From assembly GCA_903813345.2 (NCBI GenBank), contig CAIIXF020000006.1:30794024-30858023 (forward strand): DNA of 64,000 nt. Reading direction: 5' to 3'. Below are positions 7,189-61,740 of the stretch, piece by piece. The notes beneath the pieces were generated by a model, which did no database searches, had not been told where the DNA came from, and saw only the letters and a list, made by a program, of their open reading frames with translations. Positions within the stretch are counted from its first letter, which is position 1. Each line of letters begins with the position of its first letter. The translations under genes and the position numbers were made by a program. Source of the stretch: Owenia fusiformis. Lineage: Eukaryota; Annelida; Polychaeta; Sabellida; Oweniidae.

Positions 7189-7391
7189 GCGACGTCGTTA
7201 ATCAAGGACAATTCAAAAAAGGGAAGGACGCAAAACATGGCCACATTAAGCTGTTTGGCTCAACATTTTCTGTGGCAGAGAAAGTAAAAGATATAAGTGT
7301 TGGGAAATGTTGGTTTCTTACGGACGGGTACAACGCACTGAATAGAAAATTGCGCAGCTACGTGAAGAAAACATTGTTCGGATCAAATTGA
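7189..7391 (+). pseudogene. Solo terminal exon of a second lysozyme/ITIH-type gene (copy 1)
   Basis: After an acceptor (TATTTCAG at 7181-7188) an open exon encodes about 66 residues ending FGSN and a TGA stop. It is closely similar to the last exon of the complete gene (18875-19071): shared GDVVNQG, HGHI, VGKCWFLT, GYN and VKKTLFGSN, about 12 substitutions by eye and a two-residue insertion before VGKC. Phase is the same (first G supplied by the previous exon). It would be the C-terminal end of an ITIH/VWD-like domain. No upstream exons are visible before it; a 4.8-kb transposon sits just upstream. Either the remaining exons lie left of the window or this is a relic of a partial duplication. 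The reading frame is intact, so the pseudogene label is provisional. Confidence 0.65.
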
Positions 7392-12526: not shown

Positions 12527-15500
12527 ATGATGCAAAAGGGTGCATTATTTTGCATTCTTTTTGTTGGATTGCTCACTCTAGTTGGTAAATATGTTTTCAG
12601 TAAATTATCCGTTCGTTTAAAAAAGGTGCGATAAAGTGTGTTGAGAGTAACATTTAAGTAAATACAGATTATATATATTTAGCTCACAAAATTCCAAAGC
12701 ATGCCTGTTTTCCATAAAGAACTTTGAAGAAATTCATAAAGTGGACGGAAATGGACTCAATTTGTTTTTCTGAAATAAAATTCACACATAGCTAGGCAAG
12801 GTGTGTCCGATTCCAGTCAATCCGAACAGAGTATTCACATAATGAACAGTGTGTAAAATATCAATAACACATGCAAGGTCACTAGTTAAATAGTTGTCAT
12901 GGTGATGAATGGAATTTCACATTGGATTTGATGACTTGCCAACTTGACCCTCCCTTGCAATTTTTTTTATTGAAAATGTGTTCTTTTGGTGATTTCGTTC
13001 CTTTTAGATGATTTTATAGAAAAATTGCAATGTGTGAAAAGAATTTAAGCCCACGACTCAATGCATTGTAGCTGCTTAATTCCACTTAGGCGTTGTTTCC
13101 TAAACTTTGCATTCCCGCTGCGCGGTTATGCAAAGGTTTGGAAACAACACCTTCATGGTATGATTTAGCAAACAATGCATTGAGTCTTGGGCTTAAATCC
13201 TTTAATACGGGCGAGGTAGAATGTCCATGGTCAATACAAACTTGGTAGTATCATTTGGCCCGCAAAAAACGCAATGCCTCAATCATAAAACATGTTTGAT
13301 AATTCAGAAAAAACATTGAATTATATAGATGCTGCAGACAATATTGATGACATCGCGGAATATATAAGACCTAATGAAGGATTAAGGACGACAGCATATG
13401 AGGACTCCAAAGGCTTTACGACCGTCGGTAATTATGCTGTTTGATTTCTCTATGTGATAATCAGTAATTAGTATGACAATAACAAATCATTTAATTAGCA
13501 ATACGTTATTTTCATTAAATATAGGCCTACGTTGAATTTCAGTAAAAAGTTAAGATGGATTCCCAAAGAAACGGCAATAGGTTGGCAGGTCAGGAACATA
13601 ATTGTTTGCTTGCCTTTCGTTTTCGTTTTTGGGTAAACACAATGTGGTCTTCATTTCTCCGTAGAGACATATCCGTTAAATTATTATGCAATTCTTTCGT
13701 TTAACAAATACAATCAGTATTTTTTTTTAACTTTTCGAAAACATGATATACTGTATTAGAAAAGGAATCCATGTCGAAGATTTTTTTCCCATCTGTCTGA
13801 CAAATTTGCGCCAACCATTTTTTGGTCGCCGTTTTGAACGCACTTAACGAACTAACGTCCAAGGATCGGGAAGGAATCTTAAGATATGGAATCTTTTGGA
13901 AAAATGGAATTTAAAATGATTTAAAATGTTCATAAAATAATTGTGTTTCATTTATTTATTTTCAAATTGGGATATTATGATAAAGATTCTTCAAAACTGA
14001 AAAACACTGGAAAGATAAATTAGTATTGTTTATTAAAAAAAATAATACCAGGTCACCGACTTTTTCATCAAATTTTATTTCTTTTGGAAAAAAACTCTCT
14101 TCATTTTTTCTATGTTTTCGTCTAATGTTTTGTTAATTACAAGGCAACATGCATGAAGAATCCATTACTAGACTAGACATCATTGCATACATACAAATCA
14201 CTCACTAAAAATTTAAATTTGATATCACGTTTATGTGGATTTGAGCTATTGACTAGTCTATTTGAATTTGATCAAAAATTGATGAAAATTAAAAATACTC
14301 TCAACATTTTCCAAATAAAAAGTTTATTTTGTCATATTCCTATCAGTCACTTTTTTCTAATGAAGCCTCGGTGAAAATGTACTAATCATAAAAAATTCCA
14401 AACAGGTGTTGGCTTTAACATGGAACGCGCTGGTGCAAAGGATGATTGGGAAAAGGTTCTTCCCGATGTTGATTTTGATAAAGTTAAGAACAAAGAACTA
14501 GATTTAACGGAGGAGCAGGCTTTGAAACTATTTAAGGTAGCCTTATTATAGGTTGGGTGTTACTTTGATCCGTTTGACCATCAAAGGAATTTCAAGTAAA
14601 TAAGAGCACGTCATTCTCAACTGTAGAGAGCGTATATGTTATGCAATATTTACATAATTAATGACTTTACTGTAGGCTGATTTGAAAAATATATACATCC
14701 CACGTGCAAAGGGAATATTCCCAAAGTTTGACGAATACTGCGCTGAGCTCCAATCTGCAATCGTGGACGCCCTCTATCGTGGCGACTTAGGACCAAAGAC
14801 CCAATCTCTGATCAAAGAGGAGAAGTGGAAAGAGGCTGGAAAGGAGTATATCGACCATGGTGATTACAAGAAGGCTGTTGCTGGTGAAGCTGGTTTTGCA
14901 GGAATAAAAACTAGGATGGATAAAAACAAAAAGATATTTGAAGAACAGGGTTAGTCAAATTGAAAATAAAATATTTATATGTATATTTTTATATTTTACA
15001 TAATAATATAGTTATTTTATCAATTTTAAATCATACATGTCGATCGTTAGAAAGATTGCTATATATATGAAGGAGAAGCCTATAGAGGGGATATGACTGC
15101 AAAGGACTAGGTTATTTCTGATGATTTAGCTTGTGACGCTCCGAAGGAGTGTGAGAAAGACAAAGACTGCGATTGTTGTGATGATCGTCCATACTGTTGC
15201 GAGGGTATATGTAGCGAGTGTACAAAAGATGAACACTGCACCAAGGCAAACAGGAACAAGTGCGTTAAAGGGGACGCCGGGGCTTGGGTATGCGGTGAGT
15301 CATCATATCACATTTTTTATAGATACAGGAACATAATTTCGAAAGTAGAAGTTCGAAATTTTCGAATTTCTTTTCATGTCAAACTTTTCTAAATATGCTA
15401 ATCTTCAAAAATAAACCAATGCTGATTGTCTAACCAGGTTAAAATGATGAATATATTATAGGATTTTATTAGTACTGATGCCCTTTTAGGGCAAAACGTA

Positions 15501-18500
15501 CATCCGATCCAATTGTTTACATTTGAATAAAAGCTATATTTCAATCATGTATTTTCCTCACAGGTCAAGTAAATAAAAATTCAAATATAAAGAGGCTTTG
15601 ACATGTAGTTCAATAAGGGAGCTAAGGTTGCCAAACTTTTGGAGGGGAGTGTACAACATAAAAATAACTGATATCTGTTGACTTTCCATAATTATATTAG
15701 TTCTTTGTAAATAAAATCAGACCAAAATCAGAAATATTGACTTGACCAAAACATGAAAAGTGTAAACGGGAAATGTATTTTATTCAATAATCAATCAACG
15801 CGATGATTTATTCAACGCATTCCTGACAAATATGGTTTGGACCATTAGGATTCGAACGAATTGGGCGACCAGTCTTTTTAAGTTTATGTTGTCCTGTTCA
15901 AAGTAGTTTCAAGATTTGGGATATCCTCCGAAAACAAGCCTCCGAACACAGGTCTCCAGAATTGGGACCACATTAGTGTCTGTTATGATGTCATTTAGAA
16001 AGTGATTAACTTACTTGCATCATTGATAATAAACATAGTGGTGGTGTTGTTGCATCAATAGTGAGGAACTAAAACCGTGAATTTATCGCTTCTGGATGAT
16101 GTTACATGTATATCAATGACAGTATTTTAAAATTTCGATCGTGCGCTAACTGCACGTGTATGATTGTCGAGAAACTCGTCCTAGAAATGGGTTTAAATAA
16201 AAACAAAATATCTTGCAGAAATCGATCACCGGAAGGCTGGCCATCTTGATGCAAGAACACGGTGTTGTCGCATCACGATACCCCCCCAGTGTAACATGAA
16301 ATGAAATGTCAGCTTCAGTTGCCGTAGTAGAGGAAATAGTTGCTATGTTTATATATTTCTATGTATTTTACCAGGTGACCCACATGTGTCTGTCCAGTTA
16401 AACGATGGATTAAAGACCCATTTCTGTTTTGATGTCCTGGGCAAATCTGGCGAGATATTTCAGTTTGTTCGAGACAGGAATATTGGTGAGTAAATAAAGT
16501 AAAAAGGCTCTGCCATCAATTTGCGTATTCTCTATTCTTTTCAAATTGTTTTTTTAACTTTACATTGAATAAGATCATTCCTCTATTGTGTAATATAGTC
16601 CCAAATTGACTGGTTGAGATGTTAGACCTTCGAAGGGAATCTCTCTATTATCCAACAAGGGATGTGTTTATCTTAGAACGAGGCATGACAAAATGTCACC
16701 ACCTAGTTGCTTACAATATGAGCTCAATTCTTCAATTTTAAGTCAGATTTGAATTTCTGAGAACTTGTAGATGATTTTGATAAGACCTTTTTTGACCCCC
16801 AGAAGGTCGTTGAAGGTGAAATCTCAAATCTAAAGTCAGATTTGAACTTCTGAGAACCTGTAGATGATTTTGGAAAAATGGTCAATATGAAGGAATTTGA
16901 AAAAGACCCTTTTGACCTTGAGAAGGTCAAATCTTTTTGACCTTGAGAATGTCATTGAAGGTCAAACCTATAGATTTAAACTGTTGAGAAAAAAATTGGT
17001 CAATTTGAAGCAAGTTGAAAAAGGACATTTTAACCTTTTTCTGATCTTGGAAATGTCATTAAAGGTCAAATCTTAAATATAAAGTCAGATTTGAACTTCT
17101 GAAAACTTGAAAACAATTGAAGTCAGTCTAAACAGGATTTGTTAAGATAATGGAAGTTGTAAGAATTTGTTATAGACACCAACCGCCGATCGCCAGCCAC
17201 CAACCGCCGTAAAAACGGAGACCACTATGTCACCACTTTTTGGTGGTGACATTATAAAATCAATGGTTTAGTATTCCCAGGTTTTATGTTTGATTATCCT
17301 GCTTCAGAGTACGGCGATAAGGTTTGCCTATTTTCGTATAAAATTGAATGATCATAATTCCATTTCGAGAAATAATTAATGTTAAACATAATCTTCTCAT
17401 GGGGCGCATGAGCAATTATATTGATCTATGATGTTTTTTCATTTTCATTGGTTTGACGTAAACAGAAATCAGAATTAGAATCTTCAGTCATGGTGCCAAA
17501 CAAGTGGCGAAATTGGTTGATTTGATTGCTATTCGGACCAATGAGGCTCAAATAACCGTGGATAGTAAAGGAATCACTGATGGTAAAACCAAATATAAGT
17601 GGGGATCAGAGAGTGTTGGTGAATTTGGGGACGCCAATGTGATGATTCGAAGAAACTACGCTGAGATATTTGTTGACAAAACCGTCACTGAAATTGAACA
17701 CCAAGGCGATCATTTGAAATTCAGTGTTCACCAGCATGGTGGTCTCGGACCCCACGTCCGTGGAATCTTAGGTGAGTCTGTATTGAATCTGCCAAAGGTA
17801 TACAATTCTTAAAAACTGAAGTGTAATCAAAACAGTATTGTAAAATATAAGTGTTCCATGTAACTGTATTGGAACTGCTTTAACAATTTTTTTCTCTGAA
17901 ATAAAAAGTAAGTAAAAAAACTTTGTCAAGAGTAATTTTTAAGAGTCAATGAACATTATCACAGTGATTATGCTTGTTTTAATTTAAACGGGCTTCTTAT
18001 GCCCTATATAAAGTGTCCCATGGTCATTACCGCAGTAGTTTTAGTTTCAATCGATATGCATTTTAGAATCATTGAAACGCATATGTTCTTTTTTATCATT
18101 TATTGTCGGACAATTAAAGATTATTTACTGCAAATGACCTGACAATGCGAAAGAGTAAATCTCGATGAATGCCTTGATTTTAACCATTTGTTGTCTAGTG
18201 TATCAGTTTATTGTATTAGACTACCTATTTGAGAAGGCCATTCATTATGGCTATAATCTGATATCAAATTTATTAAAAATTAAAAAATTACAAAAGCGCT
18301 GAATTAGCAATGAGTTTTCGTTGTTTATAGATCTATTCAATTTACATCTGTTCATTTAACTAAACATTAAGACGAAATGAAGTGACCAGGCATTTAAAGT
18401 CTCCATGCAATAATTTGAAAATATATTTTTATCATAAATTGTTTTTCATGAGTTTAAAAGTTATTTTAGAAATTAAAAAAAGTTGTCAGCTTTTTATTTC

Positions 18501-19071
18501 TCAAATATTCAATTTTCCACCATTTTTTAACAAGAAATAAGATGCATGCAAAGATGGATAGAACAGAGGATATAATTATATAGAAGTAAATTGAATTTTT
18601 CCAAATAAAAATAGTTCTTGTCAGCCATTTTGGATTGTCTTGGGCTACCTTCTTCCAAGGCTGTCCTATATTCTGGCCTTGCATCAACAAAAATGTGCCT
18701 TGTTGCTTCCTTGGTACTAGGGTCATTCGTTCGTGTGCTTAGTGCTAGATGGTCGCGCTTTTACTTATGCAACATATTAATGAATTTTAGATACACGGGA
18801 GTAGGGTCGTCTAATTTTGGAAGACCCGGAGCATGATTTTTTATTAAGATATATCAATTATTTTGATATTCCAGGCGACGTTGTTAATCAAGGACGATTC
18901 AAGAAGGGGGAGGACGAAAAGCATGGCCACATTGAGCTGTTTGACTCAACGTTTTCTGTGACAGAGAAAGTAAAAAATGTTGGGAAGTGTTGGTTTCTTA
19001 CAAATGGGTACAACTCACTGAAAGGAAAATTGCGCAACTACGTAAAGAAAACATTGTTCGGATCAAACTAA
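12527..19071 (+). CDS. Secreted GH24 lysozyme / Cys-rich / ITIH C-terminal-like fusion protein, eight exons
   Basis: Predicted exons: 12527-12584, 13308-13427, 14406-14536, 14676-14949, 15130-15294, 16375-16485, 17466-17771 and 18875-19071. All junctions have GT donors and AG acceptors, and the lengths sum to 1362 bases (453 residues plus TAA). Residues 1-19 (MMQKGALFCILFVGLLTLV) form a signal peptide, so the protein is probably secreted. About 36-193 is a phage-type (GH24, T4-like) lysozyme; 195-250 is a 12-cysteine module; about 250-453 resembles the ITIH heavy-chain C-terminal/VWD-like domain. Likely role: extracellular peptidoglycan hydrolysis tethered or stabilised by the C-terminal domain. 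The role is inferred from domains only. Start choice: two adjacent ATGs at 12527 and 12530 precede the hydrophobic stretch; either gives a signal peptide. Exon 2 could start at 13329 instead of 13308 (both AG sites are in frame). A related last exon lies at 7189-7391. Introns contain MITE 13041-13200, a solo TIR at 15580 and a repeat at 16684. Confidence 0.85.
13041..13200. mobile_element. Short foldback MITE in intron 1
   Basis: ATTTAAGCCCACGACTCAAT and GCATTGT at the left pair with ACAATGCATTGAGTCTTGGG and CTTAAAT at the right. A second inverted pair (GTTGTTTCCTAAACTTTGCA and ATGCAAAGGTTTGGAAACAA) lies inside, giving an almost complete hairpin of 160 bp. Confidence 0.7.
13308..14949 (+). 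CDS. Lysozyme module of the fusion gene (exons 2-4)
   Basis: The motif NEGLRTTAYEDSKGFTTVG, continuing VGFNMERAG across the exon 2/3 junction, is the GH24 signature. Counting from the first ATG, Glu43, Asp52 and Thr58 keep the exact spacing of T4 lysozyme Glu11, Asp20 and Thr26, so the catalytic set is complete. The T4 His31 position is Phe63, so the supporting His-Asp pair is not conserved. The C-terminal part has the family pattern of a GDYKKAV helix followed by GFAGIKTRMDKNKKIF, corresponding to the GLxxRR/xxE ending of GH24 enzymes. The domain is split by introns at 13428-14405 (phase 1) and 14537-14675 (phase 0), so it has long been a eukaryotic gene rather than bacterial contamination. 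GH24 lysozymes in animals are usually explained as ancient transfer from phage or bacteria. Confidence 0.85.
15130..15294 (+). CDS. 12-cysteine module of the fusion gene (exon 5)
   Basis: A single exon encodes about 55 residues with 12 cysteines, including KDCDCCDDRPYCCEGICSEC. It is bounded by phase-1 introns on both sides, so it is a classic shufflable 1-1 module. The spacing resembles small disulfide-rich extracellular modules (dickkopf/colipase or EB-like), but I cannot assign a family. It links the lysozyme and ITIH-like domains, so it could be a disulfide-stabilised spacer or a binding module. Confidence 0.75.
15580..15651. mobile_element. Solo end of the CACTCCCCTCC transposon family, in intron 5
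   Basis: Reads TAAAGAGGC, then GTAGTTCAATAAGGGAGCTA, then GGAGGGGAGTG followed by TA. This matches the right end of the element at 2127-6897. No partner left end was found in the intron, so it is a truncated copy. Confidence 0.7.
16375..19071 (+). CDS. ITIH C-terminal/VWD-like module (exons 6-8)
   Basis: Exon 6 opens with GDPHVSVQLNDG and contains THFCFDVLGKSGEIFQFVRD, the layout of the ITIH heavy-chain C-terminal domain (GDPHF, then LCFN, then a Leu-rich strand). Exon 7 ends GLGPHVRGILG, matching the conserved (H/R)GLLG turn of that domain. Exon 8 has VGKCWFLTNGYNSL followed by a basic tail, matching the CWF end of ITIH proteins. In vertebrates this domain bears the hyaluronan ester linkage site, but I do not see that motif, so covalent linkage should not be assumed. 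The module enters in phase 1 and ends with the gene's stop codon. Confidence 0.75.
16684..17254. repeat. Degenerate tandem repeat in intron 6
   Basis: Copies of TCAGATTTGAACTTCTGAGA, TGTAGATGATTTTG and GACCTTGAGAAGGTC recur several times at irregular spacing. The block begins near ATGACAAAATGTCACCACCT and ends in TGTCACCACTTTTTGGTGGT, so its outer ends are inverted TGTCACCACC words. The right end shares the AACCGCCGATCGCCAGCCAC segment with the repeat at 11866-12150. Confidence 0.6.
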
Positions 19072-19269
19072 CATTTTTAATAACATGACGATCTAGATCA
19101 AGAATACTGATGGACTATAACTTGTCAAAATCTCACAAGAATTCCCCCACTCTATTATATTTTGTGTCTTTATTATTCTATATTGTTCCATTCATTCTCA
19201 GTTAAAAGATGTCGTCGCCATTTTCACTCATTAAAACTGCTTGCTTTATTTTACGTTTCACGAGTTAGT

Positions 19270-29863: not shown

Positions 29864-32800
29864 CTATATGGTAGAATAACCATTTAAATAATTCTCAAGA
29901 ATTGTGTCCATGTCTTGCTCATTTGGAATGCCACGCTCCAATTCGTCAGCTATACTCCTTATTTGACGTGCAGTACTTGAATTTGTTCCTTGTGAAGCCT
30001 GATGAGCGTGAAACAAAGATTGTACATCTTTGTACAGCATAACAGCACTCAATACTCCACCGCCGACATGAAAGACTTTGCCAACTTTACCCATAGACTC
30101 AAATGCAGTTTTATTAACTGCATTGGTTGCGCTTGTTGTTGTCTTGGTGAGAGATAGCGCTTTTGTTTTGGAGTCCAAAACAGCATAATTTCTACCGACT
30201 TTCTCAAGTAATTTTTGCCCCTTGTGAGCGAAAGGGATTATCTTATCCGACTTTTGCACAAACATTTTTACAGATTTGTTGACAACTTGAACTACTGTTT
30301 TGGACGCGTGTACAACTTTTTCAGGATTTTGAGCGATGGCTTTACATGTTAGAGATGCAACACCAGTCAGCGGTTGATACTTCCCATAACTCGCATTCCT
30401 ACTTTTAACATAATGACTCATTTCTTGAATACTGTCAGAATGTGACATTTGATAATTTGCAAAGTCATTAATTTCATTTTTCAACTGATCAAGAAATGAA
30501 AAGAATAAAACACGTTCACGTTCTTCTTTTGCTATTTTTTCATTGACCTCGTCGATGTGCCTTTTCATAACCCTTTCAACATATTGGTCATCTGAATTTT
30601 TACATATGTCTGACCCAATACTCACTGCAGTTGCCGCAATACCTGGTATGGCACCAACACCTGCAGTAAAGAATGCAGCTCCAAAACTTGCTAAAGCGAC
30701 TCCGTCTGCTGTTGTCGATACAGCTGCTTTGTTGAAGTCCCTACCAGCCTTTTCTTTTGCCTCAATGTCTATAGTGTCTGCAGCCCTTCTAAGTTCTGAT
30801 ATTGTGCTTTGACGTTTCTCCATATATTTTCCGAACTTAAATATAGCGAGATTTGTCATCTTTTGTATCCTCTCATTCTTCTTATCACACTCCTTGTCGA
30901 AATGGTCTTCAAGTTGTTTAACCTTTTTTGCCAATTCTAAAAACGAACAAATATTTAAAGCAGATATGAAATGGCATTTTTAACCTACAGGAATCAATAT
31001 GATTTTTTGATAAATGTATTTAGACATGTTTTCTCATCAGTAGTGCGAAAACTATTTCACTCTAACGATCGTTATCAGAGGCGTAGCGTGGGTATCTTGT
31101 GAGAGTACGCCACGAGTGAGCGAAGCGAACGAGTTCGAGGGGGGTTGGGGGGGTTCTCCCCCAAGAAACTTTTAAAATGAGATTGCATTTGAAGCGTCCT
31201 GGGTCGATTTGTCATACGAAATTCCGACTTAATCTGGACCAATTAAATGTAAATCATTAGTCATTTTTATCCAATATTTTATGATTACATGAACCCCATT
31301 TAAAATAATGGCAGACGAAATAGGTGCTTCTTGGAAATAAAACTCGTTGGCGTCATTTTATTGTTTATAACTGTATACTCATTGTTTATAAGTATAAACT
31401 TCGTTATAAGTAACTGTGAAACTGTCATATTAAACACGTATCGCGTCGTTCATTATAATATAAGGTTCACACGCCTGTTTTTGGAGTTAGCGAATTTTTC
31501 AATGACTCTTTCGACATTCATATCTTTGGAGCAGTCTCTGTGAATATGAAGCAACGCCAAGGCACTCAACCGGTCCTCGTCCATTGTCGATCTGAGATAA
31601 GTTTTAAGCCTTTTCAGAGCACTAAAGCTTCTCTCAGCACAACATGTAGAGACTGGCAGCGTTAACGAACATAAAGAAGCTCGCAGCCGTATAAAAATAT
31701 ATGTATTTCAGAGAGAAAATTTAGATTATTACAACACAATTAAAAAACAAACAACACAGGATTAGAACAAATCATTTATTTTGTTTTTCATATGTGATTG
31801 TTACTGTTACTATTATCTTACTATTTAAGATCTATCCAGTATTTTTAAAGTGCGGGGCAATTCATTCATCCCTAAGAATTTCAAATGAATCCCTCAAACG
31901 GTTTGGCTGGAAACCTGTAGACAAGCCTTGACAGACAAGATTTTAGGACGGAAAATCCATAATGGCCGCCTTAACATTTATCCAGAATGCCGAAAAATTA
32001 ATCAGTTCTAAACTTTCATAGGTAGAAACATCCCTGAGAATTTCAAATGAATCCCTTAAACGGTTTGGCTTGAAACCTGTAGACAAGCCTTGACAGACAA
32101 GATTTTAGGACGGAAAATCCAAACTGGCCGCCTTAACATTTACCCAGAATGCCGAAAAACTAATCAGTTCTAAACTTTCATAAGTAGAGACATCCCTGAG
32201 AATTTCAAATGAATCCCTCAAACGGTTTGGCTGAAAACCTGTAGACAAGCCTTGACAGACAAGATTTTAGGACAGAAAATCCAAAATGGCCGCCTTGACA
32301 TTTACCCAGAATGCCGAAAAACTAATCAGTTCTAAACTTTCATAGGTAGATTCAACCCTAGGAATTTCAAATGAATCCCTCGAACGGTGTGGCTGGAAAC
32401 CTGTAGACAAGCCTTGACAGACAAGATTTTAGGACAGAAAATCCAAAATGGCCGTCTTAACATTTACCCAGAATGCAAAAAACTAGTCAGTTCTAAACTT
32501 TCATAGGTAGAAACATCCCTGAGAATTTCAAATGAATTCCTCAAACGGTTTGGCTGGAAATCTGTAGACAAGCCTTGGTAGACAAGATATTAGGACGGAA
32601 AGTCCAAAATGGCCGCCTTAACATTTACCCAGAATGCAAAAAACTAATCAGTTCTAAACTTTCATAGGTAAACATCCCCGAAAATTTCAAATGAATCCCT
32701 CAAACGGTTTGGCTAGAAACCTGTAGACAAGTCTTGACAGACAAGATTTTAGGACGGAAAATCCAAAATGGCCGCCTTAACATTTACCCAGAATGCCGAA

Positions 32801-33962
32801 AAATTAATCAGTTCTAAACTTCCATAGGTAGAAACATCCCTGAGAATTTCAAATGAATCCCTCAACCGGTTTGGCTAGAAACCTGTAGACAAGTCTTGAC
32901 AGACAAGATTTTGGGACGGAAAATCCAAAATGGCCACCTTAACATTTACCAAGGATGCCGAAAAACTAATCAGTTCCACACTTTCATAGGTAGAGACATC
33001 CCTGAGAATTTCAAATGAATCCCTCAAACGGTTTGGCTGGAAACCTGTAGACAAACCTTGACAGACAAGATTTTAGGACGGAAAATCCAAAATGGCCGCC
33101 TTAACATTTACCCAGAATGCCGAAAAACTAATCAGTTCTAAACTTTCATAGGTAGAGATATCCCTGAGAATTTCAAATGAATCCCTTAAATGGTTTGGCT
33201 AGAAACCTGTTGACAAGTCTTGACAGACAAGATTTTGGGACGAAAAATCCAAAATGGCCGCCTTAACATTTACCCAGAATGACGAAAAACTAATCAGTTC
33301 TAAACTTTCATAGGTAGATACATCCCTAAGAATTTCAAATGAATCCCTCAAACGGTTTGGCTGGAAACCCGTAGACAAGCCTTGACAGACAAGATTTTAG
33401 GACAGAAAATCCAAAATGGCCGCCTTGACATTTACCCAGAATGCCAAAAACTAATCAGTTCTAAACTTTCATAGGTACAAACATCCCTGAGAATTTCAGA
33501 TGAATTCCTCAAACGGTTTGGCTGGAAACCTGTACACAAGATTATTCGGGACGCCCGCCCGCCCGGCAAACTGATTACAATATAGCACCTGAGGGTGCGA
33601 TAAAAATTGTTCAGAATTCCAATATCCTGGCTTTGAAGTTTGATATACTTTTTTGTGGACGCTAGTATATTTGAATTTAGTTGTCGGAGATTATATTTAC
33701 CATTAACATCGTCCATACGGTTGCCCATATCTGATATATCCGAGTCAATTGTCAGTGTCGATAATGTTTCATTCAGATATCTTTCTTGTTCTTTAAGTTT
33801 ATGATATCTTAGTCGCTTTATTTCAGCAGCCTTTCTTTTGTTTTCAGCTTCCAGCTGGTCGATGAGTTCATCATCAATTGATGATTCATCTGCATAACTA
33901 TGGGGTTGGTCGATGTTAGAATAAGAGAAACCACTAGCGTTGTCACCTTGGAAATTGTCCAT
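29864..33962 (-). CDS. Apolipoprotein-L-like protein, two exons
   Basis: Minus-strand exons: 33962-33701 (ATG at 33962; 87 codons plus one base) and 30936-29864 (terminal, TAG at 29866-29864). The donor at 33700 reads GTAAAT; the acceptor before 30936 is CGTTTTTAG. Phase 1 joins to phase 1, giving 444 residues. Residues 1-90 are acidic/charged with a coiled-coil-like stretch (DELIDQLEAENKRKAAEIKR). Residues about 165-198 (ADGVALASFGAAFFTAGVGA, then IPGIAATAVSIG) form the Gly/Ala-rich hydrophobic hairpin of the ApoL pore-forming region. Near 371-423, VFHVGGGVLSAVMLYKDVQS followed by ADELERG matches the ApoL C-terminal membrane segment and helix. No signal peptide, so probably intracellular. 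ApoL proteins act in membrane permeabilisation, cell death and defence; the role here is inferred. The exon 1 frame stays open past the chosen donor, so an alternative or extra exon is possible. A broken copy lies at 9916-10290. Confidence 0.75.
31076..31690 (-). mobile_element. hAT transposon 3' remnant
   Basis: A terminal CAGAGGCGTAGCGTGG is followed by a minus-strand coding relic (about 31690 to 31453) with the hAT dimerisation signature: LPVSTCCAERSFSALKRLKT, then YLRSTMDEDRLSALALLHIH. It ends at a TAA. The N-terminal part and the other terminus are missing; sequence upstream of 31690 is unrelated. It lies in the intron of the ApoL-like gene in the same orientation as that gene. Confidence 0.8.
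31857..33545. repeat. 162-bp tandem array, about 11 copies, intronic
   Basis: The unit contains AATTTCAAATGAATCCCTCA, ACGGTTTGGCTGGAAACCTG, AGGACGGAAAATCCAAAATG and TAATCAGTTCTAAACTTTCA. Measured from successive CCTGTAG words the spacing is 162, 162, 162, 161, 159, 162, 162, 162, 162 and 162 bases. Divergence between copies is low and spread evenly. The array ends about 150 bp before the donor of exon 1 of the ApoL-like gene. The open frame that runs from exon 1 into it is an accident. Confidence 0.9.
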
Positions 33963-60699: not shown

Positions 60700-61740
60700 T
60701 CAGGCCAGGTTGTTATATTTAGTATTTTGGGCAGATGGTAGAATAGCCAAGTTGTCATATTTAGTAGGCAGGTGAGACAGGAGTAGAAAAGTTCAATTGT
60801 CATATTTATAAGTTAGGTGAGTTGTAGAATGGACAGGTTGTTATATTTAAGTATTTTAGGGAGATATGCTAGAATAGCCAAGTTGTTCACGGTATTTGGT
60901 AATTTGGGGATATGGTAGAATGGTCAAGTTGTTGTATTTGGTAATTTGGGGAGATGGTAGAATGGCCAAGCTGTTGTATTTGGTAATTTGGGGAGATAAT
61001 AGAATGGCCAAGTTGTTGTATTTGGTAATTTGGGGAGATGGTAGAATGGCCAAGTTGTTGTATTTGGTAATTTGGGGAGATGGTAGAATGGTCAAGTTGT
61101 TGTATTTGGTAATTTGGGGAGATGGTAGAATGACCAAGTTGTTGTATTTGGTAATTTGGGGAGATGGTAGAATGGCCAAGTTGTTGTATTTGGTAATTTG
61201 GGGAGATGGTAGAATGGCCAAGTTGTTGTATTTGGTAATTTGGGTAGATGGTAGAATGGCCAAGTTGTTGTATTTGGTAATTTGGGGAGATAATAGAATG
61301 GCCAAGTTGTTGTATTTGGTAATTTGGGGAGATGGTAGAATGGCAAAGTTGTTGTATTTAAGTATTTTAGGGAGATATGCTAGAATAGCCAAGTTGTTCA
61401 CGGTATTTGGTAATTTGGGGATATGGTAGAATGGCAAAGTTGTTGTATTTGGTAATTTGGGGAGATGGTAGAATGGCCAAGTTGTTGTATTTGGTAATTT
61501 GGGGAGATGGTAGAATGGCCAATTGTTGTTGCATTTGGTAATTTGGGGAGATGGTAGAATGGCCAAGTTGTTGTATATGGTAATTGGGAAGATGGTAGAA
61601 TGGCCAAGTTGTATTTGGTAGTATGTCCGGAGATGGTAAAATAACCAAGTTGTCACATCTAGTAGTATGGGTAGATGGTAGAATAGCCCCGTTGAATTAC
61701 TTATTGTAAGGTGAAATACAAGATGTCCAAGATGTCATTT
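60700..61740. repeat. 42-bp minisatellite
   Basis: The unit GTTGTTGTATTTGGTAATTT then GGGGAGATGGTAGAATGGCC then AA is repeated about 20 times, most regular at 60890-61600 with degenerate copies outside. Because 42 is a multiple of three, stop-free frames of 177 codons (+) and 266 codons (-) run across it; the plus frame repeats LLYLVIWGDGRMAK. These have no start context, no splice support and no known family, so they are treated as repeat artefacts. Confidence 0.9.

Follow-up and report, generated by a model that had tools for sequence, protein, structure and literature searches.

The closest described animal counterparts of the gene discussed here are the GH24 lysozymes of phage origin in bivalves; they are published only for the subclasses Heterodonta and Palaeoheterodonta and occur in fusions with PGRP, MALRD2 and HSPG genes, and recombinant HcLyso1 is bacteriolytic (PMC5303276, published in 2017). 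A second point of reference is provided by the ITIH heavy chains, whose C-terminal Asp is described as ester-bonded to chondroitin sulfate and then moved onto hyaluronan (PMC4661386); an ester linkage between chondroitin sulfate and the C termini of the heavy chains is also stated in PMC7170535. According to PMC10880436, ITIH3, ITIH5 and ITIH6 are predicted to contain a VWD-like sandwich with a GDPH motif where its first strand gives way to the second, and autocatalytic Asp-Pro cleavage has been shown in a VWD domain. The present analysis concerns a 64-kb stretch of the genome of the annelid Owenia fusiformis (hereafter the window), which at positions 12527-19071 holds a predicted gene linking a GH24 lysozyme, through a Cys-rich module, to an ITIH C-terminal-like domain. 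Each of the two syt1 primers published for O. fusiformis (PMC8111721) has a single exact match in the assembly, on C11, the two pointing towards one another from opposite strands over 32 kb, and the reversed control sequences have no match; by this one primer pair the genome belongs to O. fusiformis or a very close relative, while a search for COX1 found nothing. The reading preferred here, with a probability of roughly 0.6, is that of a real multidomain lysozyme gene, composed of a shuffled GH24 module and a Cys-rich/ITIH_C tail, whose product would be secreted, cut peptidoglycan, cleave itself and be held in a matrix. A preliminary description of the locus had regarded animal GH24 lysozymes as usually single-domain proteins; the bivalve fusions (PMC5303276) show that they are not always so.

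Gene model and recurrence of the fusion

The gene consists of eight forward-strand exons with GT/AG at all borders and encodes 446 amino acids plus stop (447 codons); exons 2-8 are entered in phases 1, 1, 0, 1, 1, 1 and 1, and the consistent eight-exon structure given in the preliminary description was recovered. Exon 1 (12527-12584) supplies the start codon and a hydrophobic stretch that resembles a signal peptide in a hydrophobicity scan, as had also been proposed. The lysozyme is encoded by exons 2 (13329-13427), 3 (14406-14536) and 4 (14676-14949), the last of which holds the C-terminal half of the domain and closes with a phase-1 donor. Exon 5 (15130-15294) encodes the Cys-rich module, with 12 cysteines between residues 189 and 242; exon 6 (16375-16485) carries GDPH (residues 243-246, the Gly codon being split with position 15294) and the start of the ITIH_C-like domain, which has its core in exon 7 (17466-17771) and ends, together with the stop codon, in exon 8 (18875-19071). 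PolyA-like signals follow at 19230 and 19270. Two candidate acceptors for exon 2, at 13308 and 13329, lie 21 nt apart, and the stretch between the matching candidates in the tandem paralogue, C6a, measures 23 nt; since the upstream acceptor would break the frame in C6a, exon 2 of the window gene probably starts at 13329, and the V-D-A created by this acceptor looks like a signal-peptidase site. The 454 codons originally counted fit the 13308 acceptor; with 13329 the count is 447, stop included.

The predicted protein scores 22.4 bits against the Pfam family Phage_lysozyme (PF00959; cut-off 22.3, E 1.7e-4), and phmmer searches of PDB matched it to T4 lysozymes (best E 6e-7). In these alignments, residues E36 (13376-13378), D45 (13403-13405) and T51 (13421-13423) coincide with E11, D20 and T26 of T4 lysozyme, which we take to be its catalytic triad. 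The PHROG families matched by the lysozyme are one of endolysins, one annotated as an internal virion lysozyme motif and a third of unknown function. In genome-wide searches, all of which covered the O. fusiformis assembly (498.26 Mb, 525 contigs), protein queries located six copies of the GH24 module, spread over five chromosomes (C3, C5, C6 twice, C7 and C11), and all 16 matches of the C11 lysozyme fell inside these loci; the PF00959 profile itself found no match in the whole genome, whereas the protein query did find the copies, and a distant phage GH24 query, in a search that had no positive control, also found none. The paralogues on C11 and C5 (the latter named C5b) score 26.8 and 13.0 bits with PF00959. 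At every locus the module consists of the same three exons, with a phase-1 acceptor available on its 5' side and a phase-1 donor closing exon 4; these acceptors were chosen by judgement, and C3, C5b and others show competing AGs in other phases.

The combination of lysozyme and tail recurs at two further loci. Exons 1-7 of C6a lie 5' of the window and exon 8 lies within it (7189-7391, plus strand), with exon order and phases as in the window gene. On another chromosome, C5b, about 60% identical, matches the window gene from exon 2 to exon 8 in both exon order and phase, and has a signal-peptide-like exon of its own according to the hydrophobicity scan. The intron between lysozyme and Cys-rich module is short in all three genes (180 nt in the window gene, 210 nt in C6a, 138 nt in C5b), and dN/dS between the tandem copies amounts to 0.19 for exon 7 and 0.45 for exon 5, each a single Nei-Gojobori pair without a significance test. 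Because exons and phases recur in C6a and C5b, and dN/dS stays below 1 wherever it could be measured, the fusion is not a chance juxtaposition. The fit of the spliced aligner to the window gene is circular, the window model having been its query, and the small exons that it added at C11, C7, C3, C5a and the 5' end of C5b were rejected as chance. Adjoining C5b, the C5a locus (C5:38980500-38988000) has this Cys-rich/ITIH_C tail as well, but preceded by a PAN-like frame (E 0.0086, below cut-off); no GH24 exon was found at C5a.

The Cys-rich module and the ITIH C-terminal-like tail

The window protein reaches 13 bits with ITI_HC_C (PF06668), where the cut-off is 27 (E 0.079); Pfam gives only this family and Phage_lysozyme up to E 1, with no match to VIT or VWA, and VWD (PF00094) was matched neither by the protein nor by the tail alignment up to E 1. 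The case for an ITIH-type domain is made by relatives elsewhere in the genome. Exons 5-6 are members of a large family: outside the GH24-linked loci lie 41 of the 75 genome matches of the window protein, and all 41 hit these exons. The ITI_HC_C profile produced 20 genome matches at E <=0.1, and 17 of them are located 157-5,346 nt 3' of an exon 5-6 homologue on the same strand; the Pfam cut-off was passed by 12 of the 17. Since 17 of 20 matches sit downstream of homologues of the Cys/GDPH exons, the assignment is firm by transitivity: judged by these sequence relationships, the window tail is homologous to ITI_HC_C through intermediate genome relatives. The domain check suggested in the preliminary description had a divided outcome, with the lysozyme above its cut-off and ITI_HC_C below its own when the product was searched alone, yet homologous through the genome relatives. 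The domain content proposed there, with GH24, Cys-rich module and ITIH C-terminal-like domain in one protein, is supported by the agreement of sequence, paralogues and profile searches, and the order signal-peptide-like start, GH24 lysozyme, Cys-rich module and ITIH C-terminal-like domain is confirmed for the predicted protein.

The three remaining ITI_HC_C matches are all on C3, where VIT matches lie 7.7 and 10.4 kb 5' of two strong ITI_HC_C matches; this is the arrangement expected of canonical ITIH genes. About 0.5 kb 5' of one C3 ITI_HC_C match, in what is likely a canonical Owenia ITIH gene, an NDPHF frame can be aligned with exon 6 of the window gene (14 of 40 residues identical, E 2e-9 as a single comparison), D, P and H being common to both. 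In a seven-row alignment of the tail, six rows matched ITI_HC_C within a limit of E 1, the best of them at 1.9e-5. GDPH is invariant in all seven, although the more distant members are only 27-28% identical to the window tail. Within the window protein, Asp244 has a cysteine on either side, Cys242 at a distance of two residues before it and Cys260 at one of sixteen after it. The sole PDB match of the tail profile (E 1.5) was dismissed as chance.

Origin and genomic settings of the lysozyme module

By tblastn, 693 phage records were matched at E <=1e-3, every one of them below 60% identity, and contig scans confirmed 25 viral and 5 prokaryotic GH24 relatives; the identities of the listed phage and bacterial relatives range from 23 to 45%. 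VG[VI]GFNM was part of the patterns that selected the viral and prokaryotic relatives, so that sharing this motif is no evidence of relationship. In the GH24 tree (32 rows, midpoint root) all six Owenia copies fall into a single group with a support of 89/97, which falls short of the tool's star, and with recovery in 88% of 200 bootstrap trees; its neighbours, IMG/VR locus L055 and Vibrio phage VPMCC5, are both on long branches. From these comparisons we infer a phage or bacterial source for the Owenia GH24 lysozymes. Contamination as a source is opposed by the presence of six intron-bearing copies on chromosome-sized contigs.

The remaining three copies have other neighbours, and the joins of GH24 to neighbouring exons at C11 and C3 are proposals derived from order and phase. 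At C11 (19800393-19805173), the GH24 module comes after a signal-like exon accompanied by two Cys-rich frames. Behind the module lies a further Cys-rich exon (CGGPPDRQCC), which carries a stop and has 19 genome matches at E <=0.1, itself counted; this locus is possibly a second kind of lysozyme fusion. At C3 (26445537-26452731), the GH24 copy with Asn in place of the catalytic Asp is followed 3.1 kb 3' by a WAP exon (PF00095, E 4.7e-11), whose acceptor is in phase 1, and 6.1 kb 3' by a sequence weakly related to the Cys-rich exon of C11 (E 0.007). Between GH24 and WAP lies an array of units of about 68 bp, similar in sequence to the beginning of the WAP exon, and a reverse-transcriptase frame occurs further on; candidates for a signal exon at this locus are weak and mostly inside the repeat array. 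The C7 copy (35439177-35440631, minus strand) has an intact triad and lies among same-strand exons with EGF and TIG matches, near a cadherin-like frame (below cut-off) and a possible transmembrane stretch. Splicing of this copy into the surrounding EGF/TIG/cadherin-like gene is not favoured, since the flanking exons seem to be joined in phase 0 and GH24 needs phase 1; the copy thus looks nested in one of the introns of that gene, and a search for a signal exon of its own found none. The C7 and C11 copies could be stand-alone lysozymes.

Elsewhere in the window, a 371-codon open frame on the minus strand (29864-30979) matches apolipoprotein L (PF05461, 29.1 bits against a cut-off of 25.9). There are also two tandem arrays, one of a 162-bp unit in 10.4 copies (31867-33540) and one of a 42-bp unit in 23.1 copies (60703-61688), with long open stretches on both strands.

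Proposed mechanism, alternatives and comparison with known systems

In the proposed sequence of events, a GH24 lysozyme from a phage or a bacterium would have entered the Owenia lineage and become a three-exon module between phase-1 introns, which exon shuffling could then have joined to a Cys-rich protein family with an ITIH C-terminal, VWD-like domain. The product would be secreted, and cleavage of peptidoglycan is expected after secretion because the triad of the window lysozyme is intact. By analogy with VWD and ITIH proteins, self-cleavage of the tail between Asp244 and Pro245 is likely; the two halves would stay together if Cys242 and Cys260 pair like the strand-1 disulfide of FCGBP, or the new C-terminal Asp might be passed to a glycan or matrix partner, and in either case the lysozyme would be held in mucus or matrix. 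A tethered two-chain product is more likely than such a transfer, and Cys242, which the compared ITIH exon does not have, means that the chemistry of the tail may differ from that of ITIH. The matrix-anchored enzyme considered in the preliminary description would with GDPH have a possible chemical basis.

As a caveat, several observations count against this proposal. The window protein exceeds the Phage_lysozyme cut-off by 0.1 bit only, and the C5b lysozyme remains below it; ITI_HC_C is below cut-off in the window protein, the C5a row has no Pfam match at all and C5b none to ITI_HC_C, and the tail profile retrieved no ITIH chain from PDB. Cys242 is absent from the C3 ITIH exon that was compared. 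Residues beyond the GDPH motif matter in FCGBP (PMC10880436), and GDPH sites are not all autocatalytic (PMC6696261).

The last two points bear on the alternative that survives best, in which the tail serves simply for structure or binding, keeps GDPH for its fold and is not cleaved. The SUSD2 data favoured an enzyme over self-cleavage (PMC6696261), and in FCGBP residues outside the motif matter (PMC10880436); against a purely structural role stand the conservation of GDPH across all rows of so divergent an alignment and the D, P and H of the Owenia ITIH exon, and this alternative is judged unlikely. A real fusion whose lysozyme has given up peptidoglycan cutting for binding or some other role is more doubtful still. 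A catalytic residue is replaced in two of the six copies (Thr by Tyr in C5b, Asp by Asn in C3), and C5b shares the window-type tail, but the triad is intact in the other four (the window gene, C6a, C7 and C11), and a recombinant bivalve GH24 was bacteriolytic (PMC5303276). The GH24 exons of the window gene and C6a, furthermore, differ with a dN/dS of 0.28; values of each against C5b are 0.21 and 0.23, and that of C11 against C7 is 0.10, all of them single Nei-Gojobori pairs without a significance test from a set in which 11 of 15 pairs are saturated at synonymous sites. An equally improbable extension, by analogy with ITIH, would make the tail an intramolecular acyl-transfer device, in which GD|PH cleavage yields an activated C-terminal Asp that is esterified to a glycosaminoglycan or mucin and the phage-derived lysozyme is covalently bound to the worm's matrix or mucus, and the phase 1-1 GH24 module a shuffled antibacterial cassette for different secreted scaffolds (ITIH_C, WAP, other Cys-rich); covalent attachment of the lysozyme to glycans is possible at this same low level of confidence. 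Very improbable, finally, is the wrong joining of two neighbouring genes, or frequent termination of the lysozyme in exon 4, with exons 5-8 left to a separate Cys-rich/ITIH_C protein: read-through of the exon-4 donor meets an immediate stop in the window gene, and at C7 and C11, where exon 4 could be the last exon, it ends within two codons, so that intron retention would yield a stand-alone lysozyme, but exon order, phases and the short exon 4/5 introns are common to three loci, these introns hold no start exon for the tail, exon 5 begins mid-codon, and donor-like sequence at the end of exon 4 is kept in all six loci.

No report of an annelid GH24 lysozyme, or of GH24 combined with ITIH, was found in the open literature, most subscription journals lying outside the search, and the words "lysozyme" and "horizontal" are absent from the main text of the published Owenia assembly (PMC9977687). 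Within the reach of these searches, the host phylum and the partner domain are new; GH24 fusions themselves were already known. One genome places the three-exon GH24 module beside differing partner exons, and if the GDPH tail acts as in ITIH, the fusion would offer a testable route for fixing a borrowed antibacterial enzyme onto the animal's own matrix.

Compared with phage and bacterial GH24 enzymes (T4 lysozyme, VPMCC5, L055), the window protein retains the alignment with the T4 catalytic triad, whereas introns, a signal-peptide-like exon and a fused tail are found on the Owenia side. With ITIH proteins it shares an ITI_HC_C-type C-terminal domain that has DPH at its start; in contrast to them, it lacks VIT and VWA matches, bears a lysozyme and a Cys-rich module in front, and has Cys242 directly ahead of GDPH. 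The bivalve GH24 genes (PMC5303276) are likewise phage-type lysozymes in animal genomes that contain introns, have been duplicated in tandem and have become fused to other genes, but the Owenia host is an annelid and the partner a Cys-rich/ITIH_C tail. Animal-domesticated phage-type lysozymes would thus extend from two bivalve subclasses to an annelid, and it becomes testable whether a single ancient GH24 transfer was inherited by bivalves and annelids, or whether two were received.

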